From positions 992,001 to 1,056,000 of the forward strand of contig NZ_CP032819.1 in the NCBI RefSeq assembly GCF_003991565.1: 64,000 nt of DNA. Direction: 5' to 3'. The position numbers were made by a program, and so were the translations under genes. This stretch comes from Butyricimonas faecalis. Lineage in GTDB: Bacteria > Bacteroidota > Bacteroidia > Bacteroidales > Marinifilaceae. A model generated the notes under the pieces. It did no database searches and was not told the DNA's origin. It saw only the letters and a program-made list of their open reading frames with translations. Position 1 is the stretch's first letter, and each line of letters opens with the position of its first letter. Positions 743 to 32,331 of the stretch are shown here, one piece after another.

Positions 743-2095
743 CTATGATTTGTTAGCGGTTAATGACAGTCCTTCCTCGACATAAATCTTCACGGCCACG
801 CCCACCGGGACAAGGACATAGGAGATGCGCAGCGTATCGTCCACCAACACGTTCTGGTTAGGATCGATGGTCACGGCATAGCCTGAAATCTCCTGCGCCG
901 CCTGCATCTTGGCCAGTATATCCCCAATGAGTGTTTTGAATGCCGTAATCTTCGACGGGGCGAGAAACCCGGTTGAAGGATTGACCATCAGCGGGGAATT
1001 TACATACGGCAACAGTGCAGCGCGCACGGCTCGGCGGCTCTTGTTGATAGTGCGGTTCCGTGCAATGGTACGGAAATCCCCATGTGAGCATGTCTGGTCT
1101 TTCGAGATGTAGATCCCGTTCTCGCGGCCGGCATACTTGATGGGAAAAATATACCCCTTGTCGTCGAGTTCGTCCAGCAGTGACGGGGAGAGCGACTCGT
1201 ACCGGTTCAGACTGAGGAAGTTCTCTTCCGCCTCGTCGAGGTTGATATCCCCGAACCCCAGTTCTATTTCCTGGAAATCGTCCGCGAAGAGATTGAACTG
1301 CTTGACCCACGCGATGGATTCATGCACGTTGGCCTTTGCTATGGCTCCCATAACCGCTCCCAGAAATCCCACGGGCGTATGGTTCCTGTTGCACATCTGC
1401 ATCGTGGAGATCCTTTCGTGATGCGCCTGGCCGAATATACAGCTGACACGGCTTGATTCACAGATACATGAAGGTATTTTATTCAGGTCAATCTGACGTC
1501 CCTCGGTCGTATCCGCCCCCGTATTGGAAGGATTGGCGGAAAGGATGAGCGAGAGCGGCTGATTCTGTTCCGCAAGCCCCACGGCCACATCATTAAGTCC
1601 CTTTACCAGATTGAGGCTGTACTGCCCCGATACTCCGTTAGCCTTCCACAGCGGCTGCTCCGTCCATATGCCTATCTGGTTGATCATGCCCCCGGCTGCA
1701 CACTGCATGATTTCCAGCGCATTCCAGTTTGCCGAACAGTCCGCGAACATCACGTAGAGTTTCCCCGAACCGCCCGGATTGCCGGACATGCGGAAAAATT
1801 CACGGATATGGTATGCCGGAATGCCATGCAGGAAATTGACATTCATCTCTTCCTCGTCGGTTGCCTCCACACGTTCGATAATGCCGAAATCGTTCACGGC
1901 GGACTTGAACGAGGTGATGTAGCAGACATCGCCGGACTTGAGCTTGGTCTCATTGGTTTTACCGTACCCCTCCGTGAAAAGCGTCGGTTGGAGGGACACG
2001 TCGAACAGCAGTCCCGTCACCTTCTCGCCCGACGAGCCGGTGTCGTAAGGGATATTGCCGTCCACATCCTTGATAAATACATTACCGAGTGCCAT
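743..2095 (-). CDS. Phage tail sheath protein (DUF2586 type)
   Basis: The 450-aa protein resembles the DUF2586 sheath-like proteins of Bacteroidetes Mu-like phages: an N-terminal segment with GNVFIKDVDG, a middle region with conserved Gly/Asn turns, and a C-terminal part (about residues 340-440) with an arginine-rich NRTINKSRRAVRAALLPYV-like stretch followed by an IDPNQNVL segment, as expected for the sheath C-terminal domain that contacts neighbouring subunits. It would form the contractile outer tail. Its stop is followed by the tail tube gene and its ATG overlaps the stop of the 115-aa gene upstream by 1 nt. Confidence 0.8.
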   Translation of the reverse strand: MALGNVFIKDVDGNIPYDTGSSGEKVTGLLFDVSLQPTLFTEGYGKTNETKLKSGDVCYITSFKSAVNDFGIIERVEATDEEEMNVNFLHGIPAYHIREFFRMSGNPGGSGKLYVMFADCSANWNALEIMQCAAGGMINQIGIWTEQPLWKANGVSGQYSLNLVKGLNDVAVGLAEQNQPLSLILSANPSNTGADTTEGRQIDLNKIPSCICESSRVSCIFGQAHHERISTMQMCNRNHTPVGFLGAVMGAIAKANVHESIAWVKQFNLFADDFQEIELGFGDINLDEAEENFLSLNRYESLSPSLLDELDDKGYIFPIKYAGRENGIYISKDQTCSHGDFRTIARNRTINKSRRAVRAALLPYVNSPLMVNPSTGFLAPSKITAFKTLIGDILAKMQAAQEISGYAVTIDPNQNVLVDDTLRISYVLVPVGVAVKIYVEEGLSLTANKS

Positions 2096-8564: not shown

Positions 8565-9887
8565 CTATTCCGCTCCCCGCAGAAAATTTCCGACCTTCGT
8601 CCCCCGGGGGCGTCCGTAACGCCGGAAATACTCCTCGTCCGACATGATGCCCCGGTCGTTGTGGCTGATACCGGATGAGCCGCCTTCACCCCCAAAACCT
8701 AATCCCGGGATGACATTGAGCTGCCTGCCCACATTGATACCGAACTCCTTCTCGATCTCATCGGCCGCCACCTCGTACTTGTCCGTGATAAGCGAATAGA
8801 GTCTGATGCGGTCCTCGTTGCTCATCTCTATCCGGTTCGAATACCGGAACTCCAATCCTCCGGGGATATACCCGATAGCCACCAGACGGGGTATTATCTC
8901 CTCGTTCATGACGTTTTCGATATACCGACGGTAGACTTCGATACGGTCACGGAAGATGTCCTGGTGAGCTTTCGTGGAACCCACGTACGACTGCATCCCT
9001 CCGGCCATCGATTCTGAGCCGAGTACGAGGTTGGCAACTTCCTTGTTCACAAACTCGATAAGCCCGGTATATATCTTTTCCGAGTTGGACATGGTGAATG
9101 TCTTGATATCGACCTCGTCCTCAATGCCGGTAACCACCACCTTGTTCTGTGCCGCGTTGGCTATCTCGTTAGCCAGCCTCTTGCGGTCGGCATTGCTCTC
9201 GCTTACCGTCTTGCCGTGAATAATCGGCTGTCCATAGGTGTGGGAAAAGTTCACATAGTTGGCCACCGTGAATTTCTTGGCCAGTATCAAAGGGGTCGTG
9301 GCGGAAAAAAGTCCCAAGTCACCGGAGTTTACCAGTACATAACAACGGTAATATGCCGGGTCATGCAAATCCCAATGCGGCTCCCACAGTCCCTGCCGCT
9401 TCAGTACCGTTTTCTGGTCCGGCAACACATTGCGCCGTTCGATGATGTTGACTTCCGCCAGCCTGCCTGTTCTGGGGTCAGTATGCGGCATGATTTCAAG
9501 CAGGGTGTACCCGTACAGTTTGGATTCCACGATACCCTTGATTATCTTGTCGAACTGCGAGCCCTGTATCTTCAGGGAATTCGCCACGTCCTTGATATAT
9601 TTCCCTTTCTCGTTTACACGGGCCAGCATATACCTGTCACCGAGAATCTGGCTTTCCAGTGTCTCGACCACCGAACGTATATGAGCGTCCTGCTGCAGGC
9701 AGGCTTCATACAGGTCAATGAGCCCGGCACGGTCATCGAGGATGTATCCCGAACCGGTATCCTGGCGGCATGAACGGTAACGGTTGTTGCGCTCGATTTC
9801 GCGGACATACTCCTGAATTGTCTTCTTGGAGGTCTTGAAAATACTCTCCAAAAGTTCCCCGCCAAATGAATTGTCCGATGTAGCCAT
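8565..9887 (-). CDS. Phage portal protein (DUF935, Mu gp29-like)
   Basis: 440 aa. The order of motifs (GLIDLYEACLQQDAHI near the N-terminus, a central HGKTVSESNADRKRLA segment, ANLVLGSESMAGG around 280, and FEYSNR-like FRYSNRIEM near 350) is that of DUF935 portal proteins of Mu-like phages. The portal forms the dodecameric DNA entry channel at the head vertex. It is the first gene of the minus-strand module here; the terminase genes that normally precede it are absent, the next gene being divergent. Confidence 0.88.
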   Translation of the reverse strand: MATSDNSFGGELLESIFKTSKKTIQEYVREIERNNRYRSCRQDTGSGYILDDRAGLIDLYEACLQQDAHIRSVVETLESQILGDRYMLARVNEKGKYIKDVANSLKIQGSQFDKIIKGIVESKLYGYTLLEIMPHTDPRTGRLAEVNIIERRNVLPDQKTVLKRQGLWEPHWDLHDPAYYRCYVLVNSGDLGLFSATTPLILAKKFTVANYVNFSHTYGQPIIHGKTVSESNADRKRLANEIANAAQNKVVVTGIEDEVDIKTFTMSNSEKIYTGLIEFVNKEVANLVLGSESMAGGMQSYVGSTKAHQDIFRDRIEVYRRYIENVMNEEIIPRLVAIGYIPGGLEFRYSNRIEMSNEDRIRLYSLITDKYEVAADEIEKEFGINVGRQLNVIPGLGFGGEGGSSGISHNDRGIMSDEEYFRRYGRPRGTKVGNFLRGAE

Positions 9888-10621: not shown

Positions 10622-10979
10622 CACATTTAAAAGACCCAAGATGGTGCTCATCTTCAACGGGGCACAGGTTCTTGTAGCCGTCACGCGCTCGCTGCACAGC
10701 GCGGCGGAGCTGACAAAAGGTAACTTGCAGGCCATTTCATTCTGTTGTACGGGCAAGTATGTATGCAGCGGAGGACTCTATTTCAGGCATCTGCATCCGG
10801 ATGTGGAAATCGAGCTGGCCGACCTCGGCACACTGATGCTGAAAGATTATGACGCCCTTTGTGGCGAGAAACGCACGTACTATCCGGTGCGTAAGATGGC
10901 TCACAAAAGAGCCTTGCTTGAAAACAAACGTAAGTCTGATAACCAAAAGAAAGGAGGAAATACCTATGAGGGAGAATAG
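10611..10979 (+). CDS. NUMOD1-like small protein
   Basis: 122 aa. Residues 26-60 follow the NUMOD1 pattern: SLHSAAELTKGNLQ, then AISFCCTGK and a SGGLYFRH-like end, which is the helix-turn-helix-like DNA-contact module found in homing endonucleases and phage proteins. There is no endonuclease domain. It lies between two KilA-N-like genes and overlaps both, so it probably works with them in phage regulation. The C-terminus is Lys-rich. Confidence 0.55.
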   Translation: MRRSTFKRPKMVLIFNGAQVLVAVTRSLHSAAELTKGNLQAISFCCTGKYVCSGGLYFRHLHPDVEIELADLGTLMLKDYDALCGEKRTYYPVRKMAHKRALLENKRKSDNQKKGGNTYEGE

Positions 10980-12099
10980 GAATATTCCGTTCCGGGACTG
11001 GAACATAAGGGTTTCCCGGAACCATAACGGCCAGATCCACATCTGTGCCGTGGACATCTGCGATATACTCAAACGGGGCGAACTGCTTGAAAACGGAGCC
11101 ATCGCCCGTGTCTGCCCGACGGCATTGAAAATCAGTTTCCGGAAAAACGGCAAGGAACAGTGGGGTTTCCGCCCCATCGATATGCGCCGGCTTTTACAAC
11201 TGGTCCGCAAGGAGACTATCATACCCCGTGACCTGCTCGATGAGCTGGAGGTGTGGGGCAACAAGCTTCTGGAGCTGGAAGCCGGGGAGCTGCACGCCGT
11301 CCCCCAGGACGACATCGTCCTGCACTTCGAGGAAGGGTTCCCCGTCACGTTCCGGCGTATCGGTGACAAGCTGATGGTCAATGCCACGCAAATTACGATG
11401 CGCTTCGGGAGAATTCCGTCCGAATGGCTCCGCATCGCTTCCACGGATATGCTCCGCAGGGAAATGGCCGGGAACGGACGTACCGGGAAATACGAGTCGC
11501 AAGTCTTCACCACACGGGGGCGGGGACACGGCGCGACCTGGTTGGAATCACCGCTTGTCATACCATTGGCCAGATGGATTGCCCCGGACATGCTTTTGGC
11601 GGAATGGTTGGGCGAGGCTATCGGAAAACTCTCCGTGAAACGCGGGAAGCCGGTCGTACACGGACGCCCCGGACAGGCGGCACCCGGCATGCCGTGCATG
11701 GATTGTCCCATGCCGCAGGATATGGAATCGGCGACAAGGCTGATCCTGGAACTGCGGAAGGTGGTGAGGGAATCCCTGCCGAAAATCGTATTCTACGAGG
11801 AGTTTATCGAGAACAGGGACTGGTTCAAGAGCACGCGCATCGCTGACGAACTCGGCATATCGCCGCGACAGTTGCACCAGTTCCTTGCCGAAGAGGGCAT
11901 CTGCAAGTACGAGAAGCGGCAATGGGTGGTCTTTCCTTCCTGCCGGGCCTGGCAATGCGATGTGCCTTACACGTGGGAGAACAGCCGGGGCAAGGTATAT
12001 ACTTTCGGATCCACCAAACGATGGACACAGGCCGGACGGGAGTGTATCATAGAACTGTGGCGCAAGAGGAACCCTGAATACGGCCCACCGGGTGCATAG
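10966..12099 (+). CDS. KilA-N / KilAC phage antirepressor-like protein
   Basis: 377 aa from the ATG at 10966, which has a strong ribosome site (AAAGGAGG) 6 nt upstream. Residues 1-90 resemble an N-terminal Bro-like segment; 118-225 is a KilA-N domain (KLMVNATQI, then a variable loop and ESPLVIPLARWIAPDM); 265-350 is a KilAC/ANT domain (FYEEFIENRDWFKSTRIADELG, with ISPRQLHQFLAEEG as its helix-turn-helix). Such fusions relieve repression of phage lytic genes. The C-terminal PYTW-like end is typical of the ANT family in Bacteroidetes prophages. Confidence 0.85.
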   Translation: MRENRNIPFRDWNIRVSRNHNGQIHICAVDICDILKRGELLENGAIARVCPTALKISFRKNGKEQWGFRPIDMRRLLQLVRKETIIPRDLLDELEVWGNKLLELEAGELHAVPQDDIVLHFEEGFPVTFRRIGDKLMVNATQITMRFGRIPSEWLRIASTDMLRREMAGNGRTGKYESQVFTTRGRGHGATWLESPLVIPLARWIAPDMLLAEWLGEAIGKLSVKRGKPVVHGRPGQAAPGMPCMDCPMPQDMESATRLILELRKVVRESLPKIVFYEEFIENRDWFKSTRIADELGISPRQLHQFLAEEGICKYEKRQWVVFPSCRAWQCDVPYTWENSRGKVYTFGSTKRWTQAGRECIIELWRKRNPEYGPPGA

Positions 12100-20576: not shown

Positions 20577-21884
20577 ATCCCTATGTTTACAATCAGGGTA
20601 AGCCGCGATGATAGCGGATAAATGAAAAAGCTATCGAGATTTTGGTTAGATTAAAGCTGCAAAACCTTTACTAACTAAAACGACGATAGCCATGAGAGAG
20701 CAAAGAAACAAAATTAGTTTCAGAGGACAAAAGATTTATGTAGGAATCGACGTCCATTTGAAGAGTTGGTCGGTTACGGTCTTGTCCGAAACCTCCGTAT
20801 TGAAGAAGTTTAGCCAGCATCCGAGCCCAGAAGCGTTGTACGGATTTTTAACTCGGAGTTATCCGGGCGCCGAGTATCACTCGGTGTACGAAGCGGGCTT
20901 CTGCGGATTTTGGATACACGAGCGTCTGACGGCCTTAGGGATCGACAACATCGTGGTCAATCCGGCCGACGTGCCGACCAAGAGCAGCGAAAAGCTGCGT
21001 AAGACCGACACCGTGGACAGCGGTAAGCTGGCGCGGAGTTTAAGAGCCAACGAGCTGAAAGGCATTTATACGCCGGACAGCGTATCGTTGGAGATGCGTT
21101 CCTTGATAAGATTGAAGAACTCGATAACCAAAGACACGACCCGTCAGAAGAATCGGCTCAAGTCTCAACTTCGGTATTTAGGCATCGAGATTCCGCAGGA
21201 GTTTCTCACTCCGTTTTCCAACTGGTCGAAGCGCTTTTTCGCCTGGTTGAAGGAGATAGAGACGCTCACCCCGAGCGGCCGTCAGGCCCTCGACATTCAT
21301 ATCCGGCATCTGGAAGAGTTACGCCGTCAGAAACTGGAGATGACACGGGCTTTACGGACATTGGCCAAGACGGATCGATTCCGCGAACCGCTGCGGTTGA
21401 TTATGAGCGTTCCGGGGTTCGGGCAGGCTACGGGAATGGCGTTCCTCTCCGAGATATGCGACATAACCCGCTTCCGCAATGCCGAACAACTGGCTGCCTA
21501 TATCGGAATGATCCCGATGTGCCACTCCAGCGGAGAGAAAGATGGGACGGGGGATATTACCATACGAAAACACGCCGTTATGCGCTGTAACCTGATAGAA
21601 GCGGCATGGGTGGCGGTACGTCAAGACCCTGCGATGAACCTGTTCTATACGGAACAATGCAAACGGATGCCCAAGAGCAAAGCTATCGTAAAGGTCGCCC
21701 GCAAACTGGTAAACCGTCTATTCTTTGTGCTGAAACATCAGACCGAATATGTCAATAGTATCGTGTCATAGAGAAACCCTTCCGGTAAACGGATTTTCCC
21801 AGAGAGAATACTACATAGTTGTTGCGGCGTTAACGTCCGCTTAAAATAATCTGCTCCTCTGGCCTTTGTAAACTAATAAGGGAT
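20577..21884 (+). mobile_element. IS110-family insertion sequence
   Basis: The element holds one transposase gene and ends in related subterminal inverted motifs: ATCCCTATGTTTACAA at 20577-20592 and, on the other strand, ATCCCTTATTAGTTTACAAA ending at 21884. There is no obvious target duplication, as expected of IS110 elements, which use a DEDD transposase and in known members a structured bridge RNA from the non-coding end. The 115 nt before and 110 nt after the gene are the candidate places for it. Ends are estimates. Confidence 0.7.
20692..21771 (+). CDS. IS110-family DEDD transposase
   Basis: 359 aa, full length. N-terminal RuvC-like domain with GID at 18-20 (Asp20), Glu67 in VYEAG, and Asp106/Asp109 in TDTVDSGKLA; C-terminal Tnp20 domain with SVPGFGQATG at about 234-243 and the serine motif CHSSGEKDG near 280. 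All catalytic positions are present and the frame is intact, so it may be active. It works with a guide-like RNA in studied relatives. Confidence 0.92.
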   Translation: MREQRNKISFRGQKIYVGIDVHLKSWSVTVLSETSVLKKFSQHPSPEALYGFLTRSYPGAEYHSVYEAGFCGFWIHERLTALGIDNIVVNPADVPTKSSEKLRKTDTVDSGKLARSLRANELKGIYTPDSVSLEMRSLIRLKNSITKDTTRQKNRLKSQLRYLGIEIPQEFLTPFSNWSKRFFAWLKEIETLTPSGRQALDIHIRHLEELRRQKLEMTRALRTLAKTDRFREPLRLIMSVPGFGQATGMAFLSEICDITRFRNAEQLAAYIGMIPMCHSSGEKDGTGDITIRKHAVMRCNLIEAAWVAVRQDPAMNLFYTEQCKRMPKSKAIVKVARKLVNRLFFVLKHQTEYVNSIVS

Positions 21885-27973: not shown

Positions 27974-28642
27974 ATGTACAAAGACCAGAAAATGAATAAA
28001 AGAATGAACAAACAGCAAACCACTCCCGTTACCGACACTTTTAAGGGGATGCTACTTATGTCAATGGGTGTCCCTGTAGGAAACATCCGTCCCTACCGTT
28101 TGAAGTCGGCACCTTCCTGCCTCGGCGGTTTCGAGCGCATGAGCGTAGCGGCAGCACGAGCCTCGGGAATGGATATCCCGGAGACGGAGAAAGAGAACGA
28201 TGAAGTTTACATATGCCGCTTGGGACCCGCCGTCTTCCATAAATGGATGCCTGTCTGGATGTTCGAAACCGCTTTCGAACCGGTTCCCGAGCAGAGACGC
28301 GGTGACCGCATCCGAACACTTACGGAAGAGATGAACAACCATCACGTGGCGGAGAAAGCCCTGAATGAAAAATGTTACGCCCTGTCCGTGAAGCTGCTTT
28401 CCGAGTGTGGCGGCAGCCTTGATGACAACGGTGAACAATCCTCGACCTATCTCCATGTTGTGGACCGTGACCCCGTGGAACTGGTCATCACGAACGCGTC
28501 GCTCCGGAAAGACGGGAAAATCTTCATCATGGGTTACAGTTACTACACGGGCGAGGAGTACGAGCAGGAATGTGACGTAGAATCCGGCATGGACATACTG
28601 AATTTTATCCTTTCCCAAAAAAGTTTTGAGTGCCATGAATGA
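27974..28642 (+). CDS. Hypothetical protein whose 3' end was probably remodelled by the RT module
   Basis: 222 aa, alpha/beta, with MMLLMSMGVPVG-like LLMSMGVPVGNIRPY near the N-terminus. It ends FECHE followed by TGA (28640-28642). A copy of the last 16 bp occurs at 30734-30749, where the same frame reads FECH and then TAA. The likely original end is therefore FECH-stop, with the RT gene start now overlapping this gene by 8 nt. Function unknown. Confidence 0.6.
   Translation: MYKDQKMNKRMNKQQTTPVTDTFKGMLLMSMGVPVGNIRPYRLKSAPSCLGGFERMSVAAARASGMDIPETEKENDEVYICRLGPAVFHKWMPVWMFETAFEPVPEQRRGDRIRTLTEEMNNHHVAEKALNEKCYALSVKLLSECGGSLDDNGEQSSTYLHVVDRDPVELVITNASLRKDGKIFIMGYSYYTGEEYEQECDVESGMDILNFILSQKSFECHE
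28625..28640 (+). repeat. Left copy of 16-bp direct repeat bracketing the RT and array
   Basis: TTTGAGTGCCATGAAT here matches TTTGAGTGCCATTAAT at 30734-30749 with one mismatch. The repeat spans the RT start codon and the end of the upstream gene, and the right copy lies after the last array box. Confidence 0.8.
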
Positions 28643-29897
28643 AGACAAGATATTGCAAATGTTCTTCGACATAGGCCGGTGGACGAAGGCCATTGAGAAA
28701 GGCGTGCTGAAAGACATTAGGAAAGACCAACTTATTCGGCTGACCGACGAGCATACCCGTATGGCGATGGCCTATGCCATGCGCCGGGGAAAGTACGAGA
28801 TTTCCCCTCCCCACACGGCGCAGATACCCAAGGACAACGGTGAGTTCCGCACAGTGTACGTAAACGAGCCGATGGACCGCGTAGTACTGGGTATCGCCAA
28901 CGACCTGCTCTTCGAGTTGATGCCGGAGATGCTGCACTCTTCGTGCAAGTCCTACCAGACCGGTATAGGGTGCGGCAAGGTAGTTACGGAAGTCAGCCAC
29001 CGGATGACAGAAACCGGCAATAGCGGCTGTCTGGGCTGGAAGTCCGACCTTTCCAAATACTTCGACAGTGTTCCGATACGGTTCATCGACGAGGCGTTCG
29101 ACAAGGTGGAGGCCAAACACGGCCAGTCTGCCCTGATAGACGTACTTAGGAAATATTACCACTCGGACCTCTATTTCGATGAAGATAACCGGTTGCAAAG
29201 CAAGTATCAATCCTTGAAACAGGGTTGTGCTGTGGCTAGCTGGCTGGCGGATGTACTGCTCTACGACCTAGACAGGGAACTGTCACAAATGAACGGCTAC
29301 TACGTCCGGTATTCCGACGATATGCTTTTTATCGGCAAGGATTATGAAAAAGCGATGGACACACTCCAAAAACGCCTGGAAGATAAATCCATGAAGCTAA
29401 ATCCCAAGAAAGTGGAATACCTGGCAGCCGATGTCTGGTTCAAGTTCTTAGGATTCAGTATCAAGGGCGGCATGGTCTCGCTCTCGTCATCACGCATCAA
29501 GACCTTCCAGCACGAGATCGAGCGGCGGACAATCCGCTGCCGGGACACGACACTGGCAAAAGCCGTGGACGCCGTGAACCGTTACCTGTACAAGGGCGAG
29601 TTCAGCTGGGCGATACAGGTATTGCCGGTCTGTAATGTGAAGAGTGACCTCAACGAGCTGAACAAGTTCGTGATGGACTGCTTTAGAGCCGTTCAGACGG
29701 GCAGGTGCAAGATCGGCGGTCTGGGATATGTCCGAACCAAACCGGATGGCTGCATCGTCCGGGGACGGGGACGCAACGTGAAGGCCAACCGCGATAAAAC
29801 AGACCGGGACATACCGGGTTACCTGACTGTCGGCTGCATGCGTAACGCCCTTCTGACCAGCCGGGCGGTGTACAACACGCTGGTGGCATCGCTATAA
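28635..29897 (+). CDS. Reverse transcriptase, array-associated
   Basis: 420 aa from the ATG at 28635 (a TTG three codons earlier is also in frame). An N-terminal helical part leads to QIPKDNGEFRTVYV (motif 1/2), then motif A SDLSKYFD (residues 137-144, Asp138), motif B LKQGCAVAS (194-202), motif C YSDD (226-229, catalytic Asp228/229) and motif D LNPKKVEYL with the FKFLGF hinge. The last 130 residues are a helical thumb-like part without an extra nuclease. Motif B is QG, not the DGR I/V-G-N type. No group II intron ribozyme is beside it. Its start overlaps the upstream gene and its last codons form the first array box, so gene and array were joined as one unit. It probably uses the array RNA as template, primer or cofactor; this is inference. 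Confidence 0.9.
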   Translation: MNEDKILQMFFDIGRWTKAIEKGVLKDIRKDQLIRLTDEHTRMAMAYAMRRGKYEISPPHTAQIPKDNGEFRTVYVNEPMDRVVLGIANDLLFELMPEMLHSSCKSYQTGIGCGKVVTEVSHRMTETGNSGCLGWKSDLSKYFDSVPIRFIDEAFDKVEAKHGQSALIDVLRKYYHSDLYFDEDNRLQSKYQSLKQGCAVASWLADVLLYDLDRELSQMNGYYVRYSDDMLFIGKDYEKAMDTLQKRLEDKSMKLNPKKVEYLAADVWFKFLGFSIKGGMVSLSSSRIKTFQHEIERRTIRCRDTTLAKAVDAVNRYLYKGEFSWAIQVLPVCNVKSDLNELNKFVMDCFRAVQTGRCKIGGLGYVRTKPDGCIVRGRGRNVKANRDKTDRDIPGYLTVGCMRNALLTSRAVYNTLVASL

Positions 29898-30034
29898 GTT
29901 ACGCCGGGCACACGGCAGAACGGGTGGACGGGCAGGCTATTCAACGTTACAGGCTTATAACCAGAATCCATATCGAGATTAACCGGTCTAACACCCGGTT
30001 AATCCCATCTCGATTCTGGCTGCGCCTGTAATGT
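29888..30034 (+). repeat. Array unit 1 with 89-nt hairpin
   Basis: The degenerate box (ATCG, CTATAAG, TTACGCC) uses the last RT codons and the RT stop. The hairpin 29945-30033 has an outer stem CGTTACAGGC/GCCTGTAATG, a middle stem CCAGAATC/GATTCTGG and an inner stem GATTAACCGG/CCGGTTAATC. Confidence 0.75.
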
Positions 30035-30202
30035 ATCGGGAAATTAAAGTCATGTGCCGTCTGTCCCGTACCCGTTACCGGAGCACACCGGGAAAGTTCA
30101 AGGAATAGGTTTGGGCATCCCGCGTACCAACGTCTTCTTTCCGAGTCTGAAGGCGGCTGACCGTCGCCTTCGGACTCCGCAGAAGACCCATACGCGGGAT
30201 AC
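30035..30202 (+). repeat. Array unit 2 with 84-nt hairpin
   Basis: Box 30035-30059 (ATCGG, TAAAG, ATGTGCC). Hairpin 30117-30200 with three stems in register: ATCCCGCGTA/TACGCGGGAT, GTCTTCT/AGAAGAC and CGAGTCTGAAGGCG/CGCCTTCGGACTCCG. Confidence 0.8.
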
Positions 30203-30375
30203 ATCGGAAGCATAAAGCCATGTGCCGGTATTATGAGAACTTTCAGTCTTTTCCAGCACGGGAACGTGCGGTTCGGGGGAATGGATTCAGCCTGCTGTCC
30301 CCGATAAGCCCGTCTCGCGCCGTCGTATCCCTAACGTTATACGACGGCGCCATTCCGGCTTCCGCCACAGCAGAC
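30203..30375 (+). repeat. Array unit 3 with 34-nt hairpin
   Basis: Box 30203-30227 (ATCGG, TAAAG, ATGTGCC). Near-perfect hairpin 30317-30350, GCGCCGTCGTAT/ATACGACGGCGC, flanked by a weaker stem GCTGT/ACAGC (30294, 30367). Confidence 0.8.
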
Positions 30376-30547
30376 ATCGGACCTGTAAAGGAACGTGCCG
30401 GCATTCCGGGAACCGCAAAAAGAACAGCACAGGGCAAAGGGGGCAAGGCCGGGATTTCAACAGAGCCGCAATTCACACGGCTGGAGCCTGTGTTATCTCC
30501 TGCTAACACGACAGATGACACAGGTTCCAGCTGTACTCGCGGCCCGT
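30376..30547 (+). repeat. Array unit 4 with 52-nt hairpin
   Basis: Box 30376-30400 (ATCGG, TAAAG, ACGTGCC). Hairpin 30480-30531: GCTGGAGCCTGTGTTATCT pairs with AGATGACACAGGTTCCAGC with only G-T wobbles, loop about 14 nt. Confidence 0.8.
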
Positions 30548-30704
30548 ATCAGGTTTTTAAAGGGATGTGCCGTCCGGATGAGTCCCCTGAACAGAAGGTA
30601 GCGCGACCGCATATGCACGAGGGACCCAAATTCAAGATACAGTATTCAAGCTTGGTCCTGAGCCAGGCAACTACCTGGTTCAGGACCGAAGTCCTACTGT
30701 ATTT
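30548..30704 (+). repeat. Array unit 5 with compound hairpin
   Basis: Box 30548-30572 (ATCAG, TAAAG, ATGTGCC). TTGGTCCTGAGCCAGG pairs with CCTGGTTCAGGACCGA (30652-30689, loop CAACTA), enclosed by ATACAGTA/TACTGTAT (30637-30644, 30695-30702). Confidence 0.8.
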
Positions 30705-30729
30705 ATCAGGACTATAAAGATACGCGCCA
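30705..30729 (+). repeat. Terminal box of the array
   Basis: ATCAG, TAAAG, ACGCGCC with the standard spacing but no hairpin after it. The right copy of the flanking direct repeat begins 5 nt later, so the array ends here. Confidence 0.75.
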
Positions 30730-30733
30730 GGGG

Positions 30734-30749
30734 TTTGAGTGCCATTAAT
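30734..30749 (+). repeat. Right copy of 16-bp direct repeat bracketing the RT and array
   Basis: TTTGAGTGCCATTAAT. In the frame of the 222-aa gene upstream of the RT this encodes FECH and a TAA stop, which looks like the original end of that gene displaced by the inserted module. Confidence 0.8.
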
Positions 30750-30766
30750 TGTAAACAGGTGAGAAA

Positions 30767-31246
30767 ATGGAAGATATTTACCGAGAAACCGTCACCGCCA
30801 TAGAGAACGGCGCAAATTTCCGGATTGATTTCCAGTCCAGAAGTTTAAAAGTAAACGGGAGACACATGATACGGAACGGCAGGTATGATGGCGCTCCGTG
30901 GTTGCCGGAGTACGGCTGCGGGGATTTTTTCACGGATGTGGAGGAGCTGTACCGCCGCTATAAACATTCGATACCATCGGAGCGCAGCCAGAGCAAGTCC
31001 CGCCGGTATTTCATGGCATTGCCCGAAAGTGACCTCGAGGACGGGGACATGCTGTACGGGCAACACCGGGATACCGCGCAATTCGAGCTGGAATTCTATA
31101 TCCTCTGCCGGATTATAGGCGGGTTCACATGGAATCCCGAAACGATGGGCAAATGGTTCTGGCAAAGCGAAAAAGACAAGGACCTGGTGATACTCAGAAA
31201 ATGGGTGGAACCCGGAAGTAATCAATTATTAACAAATTCACAATGA
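30767..31246 (+). CDS. Hypothetical protein
   Basis: 159 aa, first gene after the array, with its start 17 nt after the right direct repeat. Tyr/Arg/Trp-rich, with the helical YGCGDFFTDVEELYRRYK segment and a WFWQSEKDKD stretch near the C-terminus. It overlaps the next gene by 4 nt. I see no domain linking it to the RT; it probably belongs to the host cargo operon rather than to the RT system. Confidence 0.55.
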   Translation: MEDIYRETVTAIENGANFRIDFQSRSLKVNGRHMIRNGRYDGAPWLPEYGCGDFFTDVEELYRRYKHSIPSERSQSKSRRYFMALPESDLEDGDMLYGQHRDTAQFELEFYILCRIIGGFTWNPETMGKWFWQSEKDKDLVILRKWVEPGSNQLLTNSQ

Positions 31247-32331
31247 GTAGAAAGAAACAAGAAACAAAAGTCCTGTGCCCCGGATGCGGCACGGAATTCG
31301 CCATCGCGGACAAGGAATTTGCCGCCACGGGCACCGTTATCGGCAAGAATTCGGATTTGGGCACCGTCTATCCGGTGGTGGCCGGCCATAATTCTCCTGC
31401 CGGACTTCCCAAAGGGGCGCGGGAGCGTATCGAGGCACTCCGCGGTGCCGGTGTGGACGTGAGCTGCCTGTTCGCCATGCAGGGAGCCGAGGGCGGCGAG
31501 TATATCGCCTCCAACAAAGACGGGAAACTTACCATCCTGGATGACAACGACCCGATATTCGGCAGCATCATGGCACAGGGTACCGTTCCCAACAACCGAC
31601 TCTTCCGCCGGTGGGTCATGGCACAAATGTTCCATATGATGTCATACACGCATTACCGTGAAAAAGAGCCGGCAGGGGTGACCGAGATGATTCACCGGAA
31701 AGGCTATGATTACCAGTGGAAAATGCTCTTGAACGAGCTGCACGCCCAGATGAAGATGGAACACAAGGACATCACGGGTTTTGCCGAGAGAAACCGCTGG
31801 TTCAACCGTGATGTGGTTTTGGCCATCGCGAGCGACTATGTCAACGCGCTGAAAAAACACGTGGGCAACCTGGAAACAAGAAAATGCAAGGGAGTTCCCT
31901 ACAAGCGTATACACGGCCGTAATATTTTCGTGGAGGACCTGCAATCCAAACTGTACTACCCGCTTTCCATCGCGATAACCCACATCAGGCACGCGTTGGA
32001 CGCCACACAGCTTTACAACGCGGTCAGACAGTTCAATGACCGTCGTATCCGGCTGCCATGGGGCACTCCTCAAAGCAAGGCATGGATGGATGCCTATAAG
32101 GGAGCCGGGGCGTTCTTTACCATGCAGAACCTGATTCGTTTCCACGGTTGCACGGCTGTCAATGACCGGGGTCGGCGTCTGGACAAGTACCAGTCACTGA
32201 CGTTCCTGTCAGCCAAGGCGGAAGAGTATAAAAACGGAGAAGGCTGGCGGTTGCTGGCAGTCCTGAAAAAAATGCTGGCGGACAACAATATCAACATCAA
32301 AAAGAAGATGGCGGCATGGCGTAAGAAATAG
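31243..32331 (+). CDS. Hypothetical protein with CxxC zinc-ribbon start
   Basis: 362 aa. LCPGCGTEFAIADKEF at 10-25 is half a zinc ribbon; the rest is mixed alpha/beta with MTEMIHRKGYDYQWKMLLNE-like and LQSKLYYPLSIAITHIRHA segments. Its last codons (GGCATGGCGTAAGAAATAG) resemble the degenerate first array box, and an orphan array unit follows. Function unknown. Confidence 0.6.
   Translation: MSRKKQETKVLCPGCGTEFAIADKEFAATGTVIGKNSDLGTVYPVVAGHNSPAGLPKGARERIEALRGAGVDVSCLFAMQGAEGGEYIASNKDGKLTILDDNDPIFGSIMAQGTVPNNRLFRRWVMAQMFHMMSYTHYREKEPAGVTEMIHRKGYDYQWKMLLNELHAQMKMEHKDITGFAERNRWFNRDVVLAIASDYVNALKKHVGNLETRKCKGVPYKRIHGRNIFVEDLQSKLYYPLSIAITHIRHALDATQLYNAVRQFNDRRIRLPWGTPQSKAWMDAYKGAGAFFTMQNLIRFHGCTAVNDRGRRLDKYQSLTFLSAKAEEYKNGEGWRLLAVLKKMLADNNINIKKKMAAWRKK

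Follow-up and report, generated by a model that had tools for sequence, protein, structure and literature searches.

A gene for a reverse transcriptase (RT) of the UG27 group in Butyricimonas faecalis is followed by an array of five structured RNA units, each closed by a pseudoknot between a loop near its 5' end and a box at its 3' end. The locus lies in a 64,000-nucleotide (nt) stretch of contig NZ_CP032819.1 (assembly GCF_003991565.1, positions 992,001 to 1,056,000, forward strand), called the window here, and coordinates are those of the window unless stated otherwise. The gene set, the array, the unit boundaries and a pseudoknot and hairpin that covary across homologous loci (given L numbers below) are established here. 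The RT group and the families of its two partner proteins, p159 and p362, were known; the array of separately pseudoknotted RNA units appears to be new. On balance we lean, with modest conviction, towards a UG27 ribonucleoprotein system with a multi-RNA array, in which one RT serves several RNAs that are not interchangeable and are probably templates. The features of the locus are as follows.

28635 to 29897, plus strand: RT of the UG27 group, 420 residues; ATG at 28635, stop codon at 29895-29897
29898 to 30058, plus strand: RNA unit 1; loop GGCACA at 29907-29912, hairpin at 29944-30034, TAAAG at 30045-30049, pseudoknot strand within 30052-30058
30059 to 30226, plus strand: RNA unit 2; loop GCACA at 30083-30087, hairpin at 30110-30208, TAAAG at 30213-30217, pseudoknot strand within 30220-30226
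30227 to 30399, plus strand: RNA unit 3; loop GCACG at 30256-30260, hairpin at 30292-30373, TAAAG at 30386-30390, pseudoknot strand within 30393-30399 (ACGTGCC)
30400 to 30571, plus strand: RNA unit 4; loop GCACA at 30427-30431, hairpin at 30465-30543, TAAAG at 30558-30562, pseudoknot strand within 30565-30571
30572 to 30728, plus strand: RNA unit 5; loop GCGCG at 30601-30605, hairpin at 30635-30704, closing TAAAG at 30715-30719, pseudoknot strand within 30722-30728 (ACGCGCC)
30734 to 30739, plus strand: TTTGAG element after the last box
30767 to 31246, plus strand: p159, partner protein; PADLOC RTas346, 227 bits
31243 to 32331, plus strand: p362, partner protein; PADLOC RTas337, 515 bits

The five units span positions 29898-30728, between the RT and p159 genes. 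A position-weight scan finds TAAAG boxes at 30045, 30213, 30386, 30558 and 30715, and pieces cut right after each box measure 157-173 nt. Local folding gives hairpins at 29932-30055, 30110-30208, 30292-30373, 30445-30557 and 30635-30704, of which those of units 1 and 4 were trimmed to 29944-30034 and 30465-30543 (the unit 4 trim being our own reading). A preliminary description of the window had pointed out five diverged units with a box and a long hairpin each, and these two analyses recover them. The boxes it noted are real, but their placement has to be revised: the box taken to close the array is the 3' end of unit 5, and every box ends the unit before it. An independent repeat search also recovered the box in part (family D1, at 30033, 30201 and 30546, with a weak copy at 31254 beyond the array). 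Tandem Repeats Finder gave no entry in the array region, and no similarity between units of one array was found at E 1e-4; the repetition is one of shared plan rather than shared sequence. Alignment of the 5' parts of 96 units shows that a box is usually followed by TGAG, after which come a small stem-loop and a variable stretch with a TT-rich motif, often ATTTA, at its end. The long hairpin is next, and on its 3' side lie ATCR, some six bases, TAAAG, a further two bases and the box word. The TGAG element comes after most boxes, including the last one.

The pairing that defines a unit is between the loop of its small 5' stem-loop and its own 3' box, and it is by this pairing that the box belongs to the preceding unit. 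The loop words of units 1 to 5 (GCACA, GCACA, GCACG, GCACA and GCGCG) match ATGTGCC, ATGTGCC, ACGTGCC, ATGTGCC and ACGCGCC in their own boxes. Across 21 loci, 102 of 117 units form a Watson-Crick helix of at least 5 base pairs (bp) with their own 3' box, compared with a mean of 26 and a maximum of 38 over 200 shuffles of the boxes; as the units share descent, each cannot be counted as an independent event. Of 42 arrays, 21 supplied the 117 units, with near copies and loci L044, L045 and L058 excluded and only box spacings of 110-230 nt used, and the boxes were detected without use of the loop-box pairing. Where a unit has unlike boxes on its two sides (n=88), pairing with the 3' box is seen in 78 and pairing with the 5' box in 23. 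In a fixed register, perfect 5-bp pairing is seen in 101/117 units with 23 different words. The same holds in 25 loci outside the box model, where 69 of 81 units pair over at least 5 bp (shuffled mean 21, maximum 31) and, among the 52 informative units, 43 pair with the 3' box and 8 with the 5' box. The box words alternate pyrimidine and purine in 116 of the 117 units, a count biased by a search pattern that required alternation at several positions. The single-unit loci L093 and L095 pair GGATA with TATCC.

Covariation across loci, which the preliminary description had proposed as a check, supports both the pseudoknot and the hairpin. Over ten orthologues of unit 5, 89.3% of cells are paired and both-side changes number 22, versus 8.0 in shuffles; over ten of unit 1, the values are 81.4% and 27 versus 10.8. 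These both-side counts were reached by none of 500 shuffles, and unit 1 also shows 28 further pair types against 22.2 shuffled. In both sets every cell of the pseudoknot helix is paired (100%), and two of its positions in each set show both-side changes. Sliding the partner strand by 1-3 columns lowers pairing to 30-36% for unit 5 and 24-42% for unit 1; each structure was taken from a single member of its set, which puts the slid versions at a disadvantage.

Stability beyond shuffled sequence is also a property of the units. The mean shuffle z-score is -4.2 for 116 units, 107 of them under -2, and -0.6 for 126 RT-coding tiles from the 21 loci, 16 of them under -2. In the window, units 1 to 5 score -3.4, -5.5, -1.9, -3.3 and -4.5 and 17 neighbouring coding tiles score from -1.9 to +1.3, so that unit 3 alone is not below the lowest tile. 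These z-scores replaced hairpin counts by local folding, which fail to separate arrays from coding DNA (6.24 versus 6.67 per kb; 4.71 versus 4.00 per kb). A generic unit finder, at 4.31 per kb for arrays, 2.23 for the reverse strand and 1.78 for RT genes, was noisy and was left unused.

The array is a regular part of the RT locus, as the preliminary description had supposed. At least one box occurs in 41 of the 42 arrays and in 23 of the 25 further loci. The exceptions show hairpins by eye, together with diverged boxes in L058 and box-like stretches in L055 and L061, so a consistent lack of boxes and hairpins near relatives of the RT is not seen. Counted homologs hold one to eight units: L093 and L095 have one, L043, L044, L058, L062 and L090 roughly two to four as judged by eye, and Bacteroides phage BS-TP1, L035, L051, L052 and L060 eight. 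The upper number is a lower bound, as boxes can be missed and the arrays of L059 and L078 (1627 bp) are partly resolved. Units are collinear across loci similar enough to compare, with no shuffling seen; one cluster in this comparison merges units 2 and 3, fused by a missed box in L023. Seven near-identical copies of the locus have 27 variable columns in the array (29898-30766) and 3 in the RT gene (28635-29897), and an eighth, L050, diverges at the RT start. The array is probably non-coding, because near-identical copies differ there by 8-nt and 2-nt indels. One such copy, L005, has an 8-nt insertion, ATACGACG, that repeats one arm of hairpin 3 in an array otherwise near-identical, a possible mark of slippage or array editing.

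The place of the array relative to the genes varies. In loci where RT and p159 are fused, the hairpins lie between the fusion and p362; in L087, p159 and p362 are upstream of the RT and hairpins with two boxes lie downstream of it; in L059 no array separates RT from p159, and hairpins stand 3' of p362 instead. A box of the form ATATGAAACTTTTATAG accompanies the hairpins downstream of p362 in L059/L108. This variation bears on whether the hairpins serve ordinary post-transcriptional control, stabilising or attenuating the messenger RNA of an RT-p159-p362 operon. The array does sit among three same-strand genes, as such control would have it. Its differing position between related gene sets argues otherwise, as do the two plus-strand terminator-like matches in 28500-31000, which are not above shuffles, and up to eight pseudoknotted units would seem beyond what attenuation needs; we consider ordinary control very improbable.

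The open reading frame (ORF) of the RT, with the motifs SDLSKYFD, KQGC and an intact catalytic YSDD, is as the preliminary description had it, whereas its view that the RT stands outside known systems is not supported in that form. The PADLOC profile RT_UG27 matches residues 3-420 with 766 bits, followed by UG26 (123), the generic RT profile (88), UG17 (83) and Drt9 (82), and Pfam RVT_1 matches as well; on these profile scores, the RT is assigned to the UG27 group within the PADLOC DRT set. Since p159 and p362 match RTas346 and RTas337, the same protein set is already catalogued there, in models that cover proteins only, to which the RNA array is added here. A group II intron fits less well: the maturase model gives 93.5 bits, under its cut-off of 300, and no intron family is found in 28000-32000 at E up to 1. 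The sole Rfam match over 28000-32000 is at chance level, and no long near-identical repeat pair of the kind found in diversity-generating retroelements occurs within 28000-31500. Group II intron RTs (E 1e-13) and the DRT9 RT (E 3.7e-13) are the closest Foldseek matches to an AlphaFold model made for the natural RT-p159 fusion of L057 (mean predicted local distance difference test score, pLDDT, 85).

Retron RTs are also among the structural matches of that model, and a small stem-loop followed by a long variable hairpin has what we take to be a likeness to the msr-msd of retrons. The locus could accordingly be retron-like, with several msr-msd units whose hairpins each give a branched msDNA guarding p362. 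We regard this as quite improbable: the retron RTs score lower in the structural search, the window RT fails the retron models (St85 at 40 bits against a cut-off of 235, and the Ec107-like PADLOC model at 39 bits against 766 for UG27), the units are several and their ends are joined by a loop-box pseudoknot.

The three genes travel together. Homologous loci and the window make up 74 entries, several of them copies of one contig; L046 (a 25-residue match), L047, L048, L050 and a second copy of the locus in the source genome are not among them. By profile search, RT, p159 and p362 occur together in 72 of the 72 entries that have DNA past the RT, the other two stopping at the RT. By tblastn, all 40 loci compared have the RT and p362 and 39 have p159, and 13 other genes near the window's RT are each found in 1-9 of the 40, the farthest of them lying beyond the flanks of many loci. 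An additional small ORF of about 75 codons lies between the last box and p159 in L008, L009 and L011. Seven entries (L054, L055, L056, L057, L061, L089 and L097) have an RT fused to the C-terminal part of p159, and because such natural fusions exist p159 is probably an RT subunit. The AlphaFold2 model of p362 has a mean pLDDT of 78, and structure searches with it gave no strong match and no known fold; p362 is likely a candidate effector or sensor.

RTs that work with one non-coding RNA (ncRNA) were known before, namely DRT2, DRT3, DRT9 and DRT10 (PMC12632851, PMC12039810, PMC13174585, in the text available), and Class 2 UG RTs studied to date are described in the available part of PMC13174585 as copying an adjacent ncRNA. 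A cis-encoded, conserved and structured RNA, a feature of Class 2 UG and DRT systems, is present at the window locus as the covarying units, which we infer to be transcribed as ncRNA. On the available text of PMC12039810, DRT2 (UG2) likewise joins an RT to a pseudoknotted ncRNA encoded in cis, in which conservation is lowest in the template part; it differs in that the ncRNA is a single one of 280 nt, with ACA repeats flanking a template of 120 nt, and in that the complementary DNA (cDNA) encodes an ORF. The window locus has several units, and among 113 units tested hairpin-flanking repeats are not in excess. DRT9 (UG28) shares an RT working with ncRNA and the close RT fold given above, but the Drt9 profile scores 82 bits on the window RT and UG27 766; its own product is RNA-templated poly-dA, according to the portion of PMC13174585 available. 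DRT10 (UG17) likewise combines RT, ncRNA and a partner protein, and the UG17 model scores 83 bits on the window RT. It is described, in the accessible part of PMC12632851, with one ncRNA carrying an A-B-A' template and with a SLATT partner, whereas p159 and p362 match no SLATT model. An RNA array at UG27 is not described in the open literature searched, outside which lies the 2022 UG/Abi survey, so that an earlier mention is possible; nor was a paper on this UG27 RT, or on such RNA arrays with RTs, found in that literature.

Given the above, a transcript of the RT operon would carry the RNA units in succession. Each unit would fold alone, its 5' stem-loop kissing its own 3' box and closing the unit around the long hairpin, which often seems to consist of three stems, and different pairing words would direct each loop to its own box. 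Through the parts that the units share (the stem-loop, the sequence leading up to the hairpin, TAAAG and TGAG) they would be bound by the RT together with its subunit p159. The variable part of the hairpin may then be used as a template, as the analogy of Class 2 UG RTs suggests, giving a set of different cDNAs, with p362 as the likely effector or sensor and with defence, or competition between mobile elements and phages, as the likely role. That the hairpin is the copied part is suggested because the template of DRT2 is its least conserved part and because the Class 2 UG RTs studied copy an adjacent ncRNA. Each unit probably works alone, as some loci have one unit, and since the units are conserved in position and differ from one another they probably have separate roles.

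Several observations weigh against this reading. The first concern the structure itself. The 5-bp pairing is missing in 15 of the 117 and 12 of the 81 units; further pair types in unit 5 are not above shuffles (20 versus 18.2, reached by 120 of 500); and pairing across loci is poor in parts of the long hairpin, down to 60% for helix 4 of unit 1, which alignment error may explain. The folded strand is less clear than the fold. A loose count of mismatches was dominated by chance; a strict count inside helices gives G.T over A.C by 13 to 3, small counts which suggest that the plus strand is the folded RNA. This strand evidence is weak, because folding z-scores are the same on both strands (-4.28 and -4.31) and chance should account for about 15 of the 39 mismatch places on which the count rests. 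The minus strand as the folded one was considered, having lower energies in 97 of 116 units, and was dropped as the effect disappears against shuffles.

Hairpins strong on both strands might act as DNA, as recombination, replication or mobility sites like attC or the ends of retroelements, and the occurrence of the system in phage and predicted viral contigs would suit such sites. The order of the units is kept in comparable loci, with no sign of shuffling; the loop-box pairing covaries, and the excess of G.T over A.C, small as the counts are, favours RNA. Action as DNA sites is accordingly, in our judgement, highly improbable.

Other points bear on templating and function. Direct repeats around the hairpin are not in excess (113 units; longest 4.50 nt in a unit's own flanks and 4.52 in shuffles), and in the absence of flanking repeats the template-cycling signature of DRT10 and DRT2 is not seen at the hairpin. 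Template cycling through such repeats was therefore set aside for the flanks of the hairpin, which the test covered; the template may lie elsewhere. The assembly of a cDNA from several units was rejected as well, since units within arrays are neither complementary nor alike (6.31 and 6.30 nt within arrays versus 6.49 and 6.66 between them). An effector domain in p362 was not recognised by domain models or structure searches. Finally, host defence is not the sole possible role, given that the system occurs in a phage and in predicted viral contigs.

The missing realignment repeats would also fit units that bind the RT and are not copied, whether as a scaffold that gathers several RTs on one transcript or as a sponge holding the RT or p362 inactive until a trigger, any cDNA then being untemplated or otherwise derived. 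Conservation of the common parts and the pseudoknot while hairpin sequences vary freely agrees with such a role, and DRT9 RTs have been solved as tetramers and hexamers with ncRNA, going by the titles of the structure entries. Loci with one unit, however, make a multi-unit scaffold unnecessary, and a distinct hairpin, conserved in position, in every unit is more than a plain scaffold would call for. We think uncopied units unlikely, though clearly more deserving of attention than the other alternatives, and keep to units that probably serve as templates.

A more specific form of this templating reading is held tentatively, at somewhat less than even confidence. Each unit would give its own defined cDNA, for up to eight DNA hairpins, each perhaps watching or blocking another target, and the pairing words would form an address code that keeps the 5' and 3' ends of each RNA matched within a shared transcript. 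Most of the words alternate purine and pyrimidine, and 23 of 32 possible ones occur, with some bias from the search pattern. Should the units be templates, they would be a natural means of making several defined single-stranded DNAs out of a single transcript, and an illustration of how new DNA products evolve among UG RTs. One enzyme with several individually conserved RNAs would be a multi-channel version of the single-template RTs, with a logic comparable to that of a CRISPR array, but with fixed and structured units. The loop-box pairing is a rule testable by compensatory mutation of five base pairs, and with its numerous relatives and its occurrence in a Bacteroides phage the system is readily testable.

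Two other ideas about the array were set aside. Hairpins as decoys for restriction sites are not favoured by palindromes in their 5' arms, which are not enriched (340 4-mers versus 333.8 expected; 57 6-mers versus 83.8). The idea that a start signal is formed by a box at the stop codon of the RT was dropped on our own judgement, because unit 1 starts just past the stop and its own stem-loop explains the resemblance. As a separate observation, CCWGG occurs 15 times in the hairpin 5' arms of 117 units against 7.5 expected by a Markov model, for which no spread was computed.

Homologous loci are found in Bacteroidota genomes, in predicted viral contigs of up to 161 kb and in Bacteroides phage BS-TP1. 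There, gp79 (PQ571274.1 79351-80613, equal to L049 9995-11257), annotated as a tail protein, is a UG27 RT, and the unannotated 1350-bp stretch on its 3' side contains the eight units counted above. A search of phage records with the array gave one unannotated fecal phage contig with an identical array (100%). A protein search returned 4430 relatives at E <= 0.001, one cluster representing 2180 sequences, and all 120 relatives listed are at least 80% identical. In genome samples, the RT occurs in 1 of 395 genomes of the phylum (the source genome itself; E <= 1e-60) and in 3 of 56 of the family (source genome included; E <= 1e-25). UG26, taken as an outgroup, had no match in the 395 genomes at E <= 1e-40, which does not establish its absence.

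The source genome holds a second copy of the locus (C1:3679157-3681284, minus strand), 99.5% identical across 4.26 kb. Differences between the two arrays concentrate in unit 4, mainly within its hairpin, where some make pairs stronger (U-G to C-G) and others disrupt them. Searched against the source genome, the array matches only this second copy, apart from two weak matches of the arrays to their own reverse strand (E 0.08).

A 12-nt direct repeat, TTTGAGTGCCAT, stands before the RT start (28625-28636) and after the array (30734-30745). A mobile insertion bounded by these repeats was considered and rejected: the downstream copy matches the conserved element after the last box, and the upstream copy turned up in the window and L006 and in none of the other eight of the ten loci scanned. 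The upstream copy may mark a past recombination with an array end. To the left of the RT, the window contains Mu-like phage genes (DUF2586 and Mu portal) and a KilA-N/ANT antirepressor-type gene at 743-2095 (minus), 8565-9887 (minus) and 10849-12099 (plus), and an IS110-family transposase gene lies at 20692-21771 (plus), 7 kb upstream of the RT.

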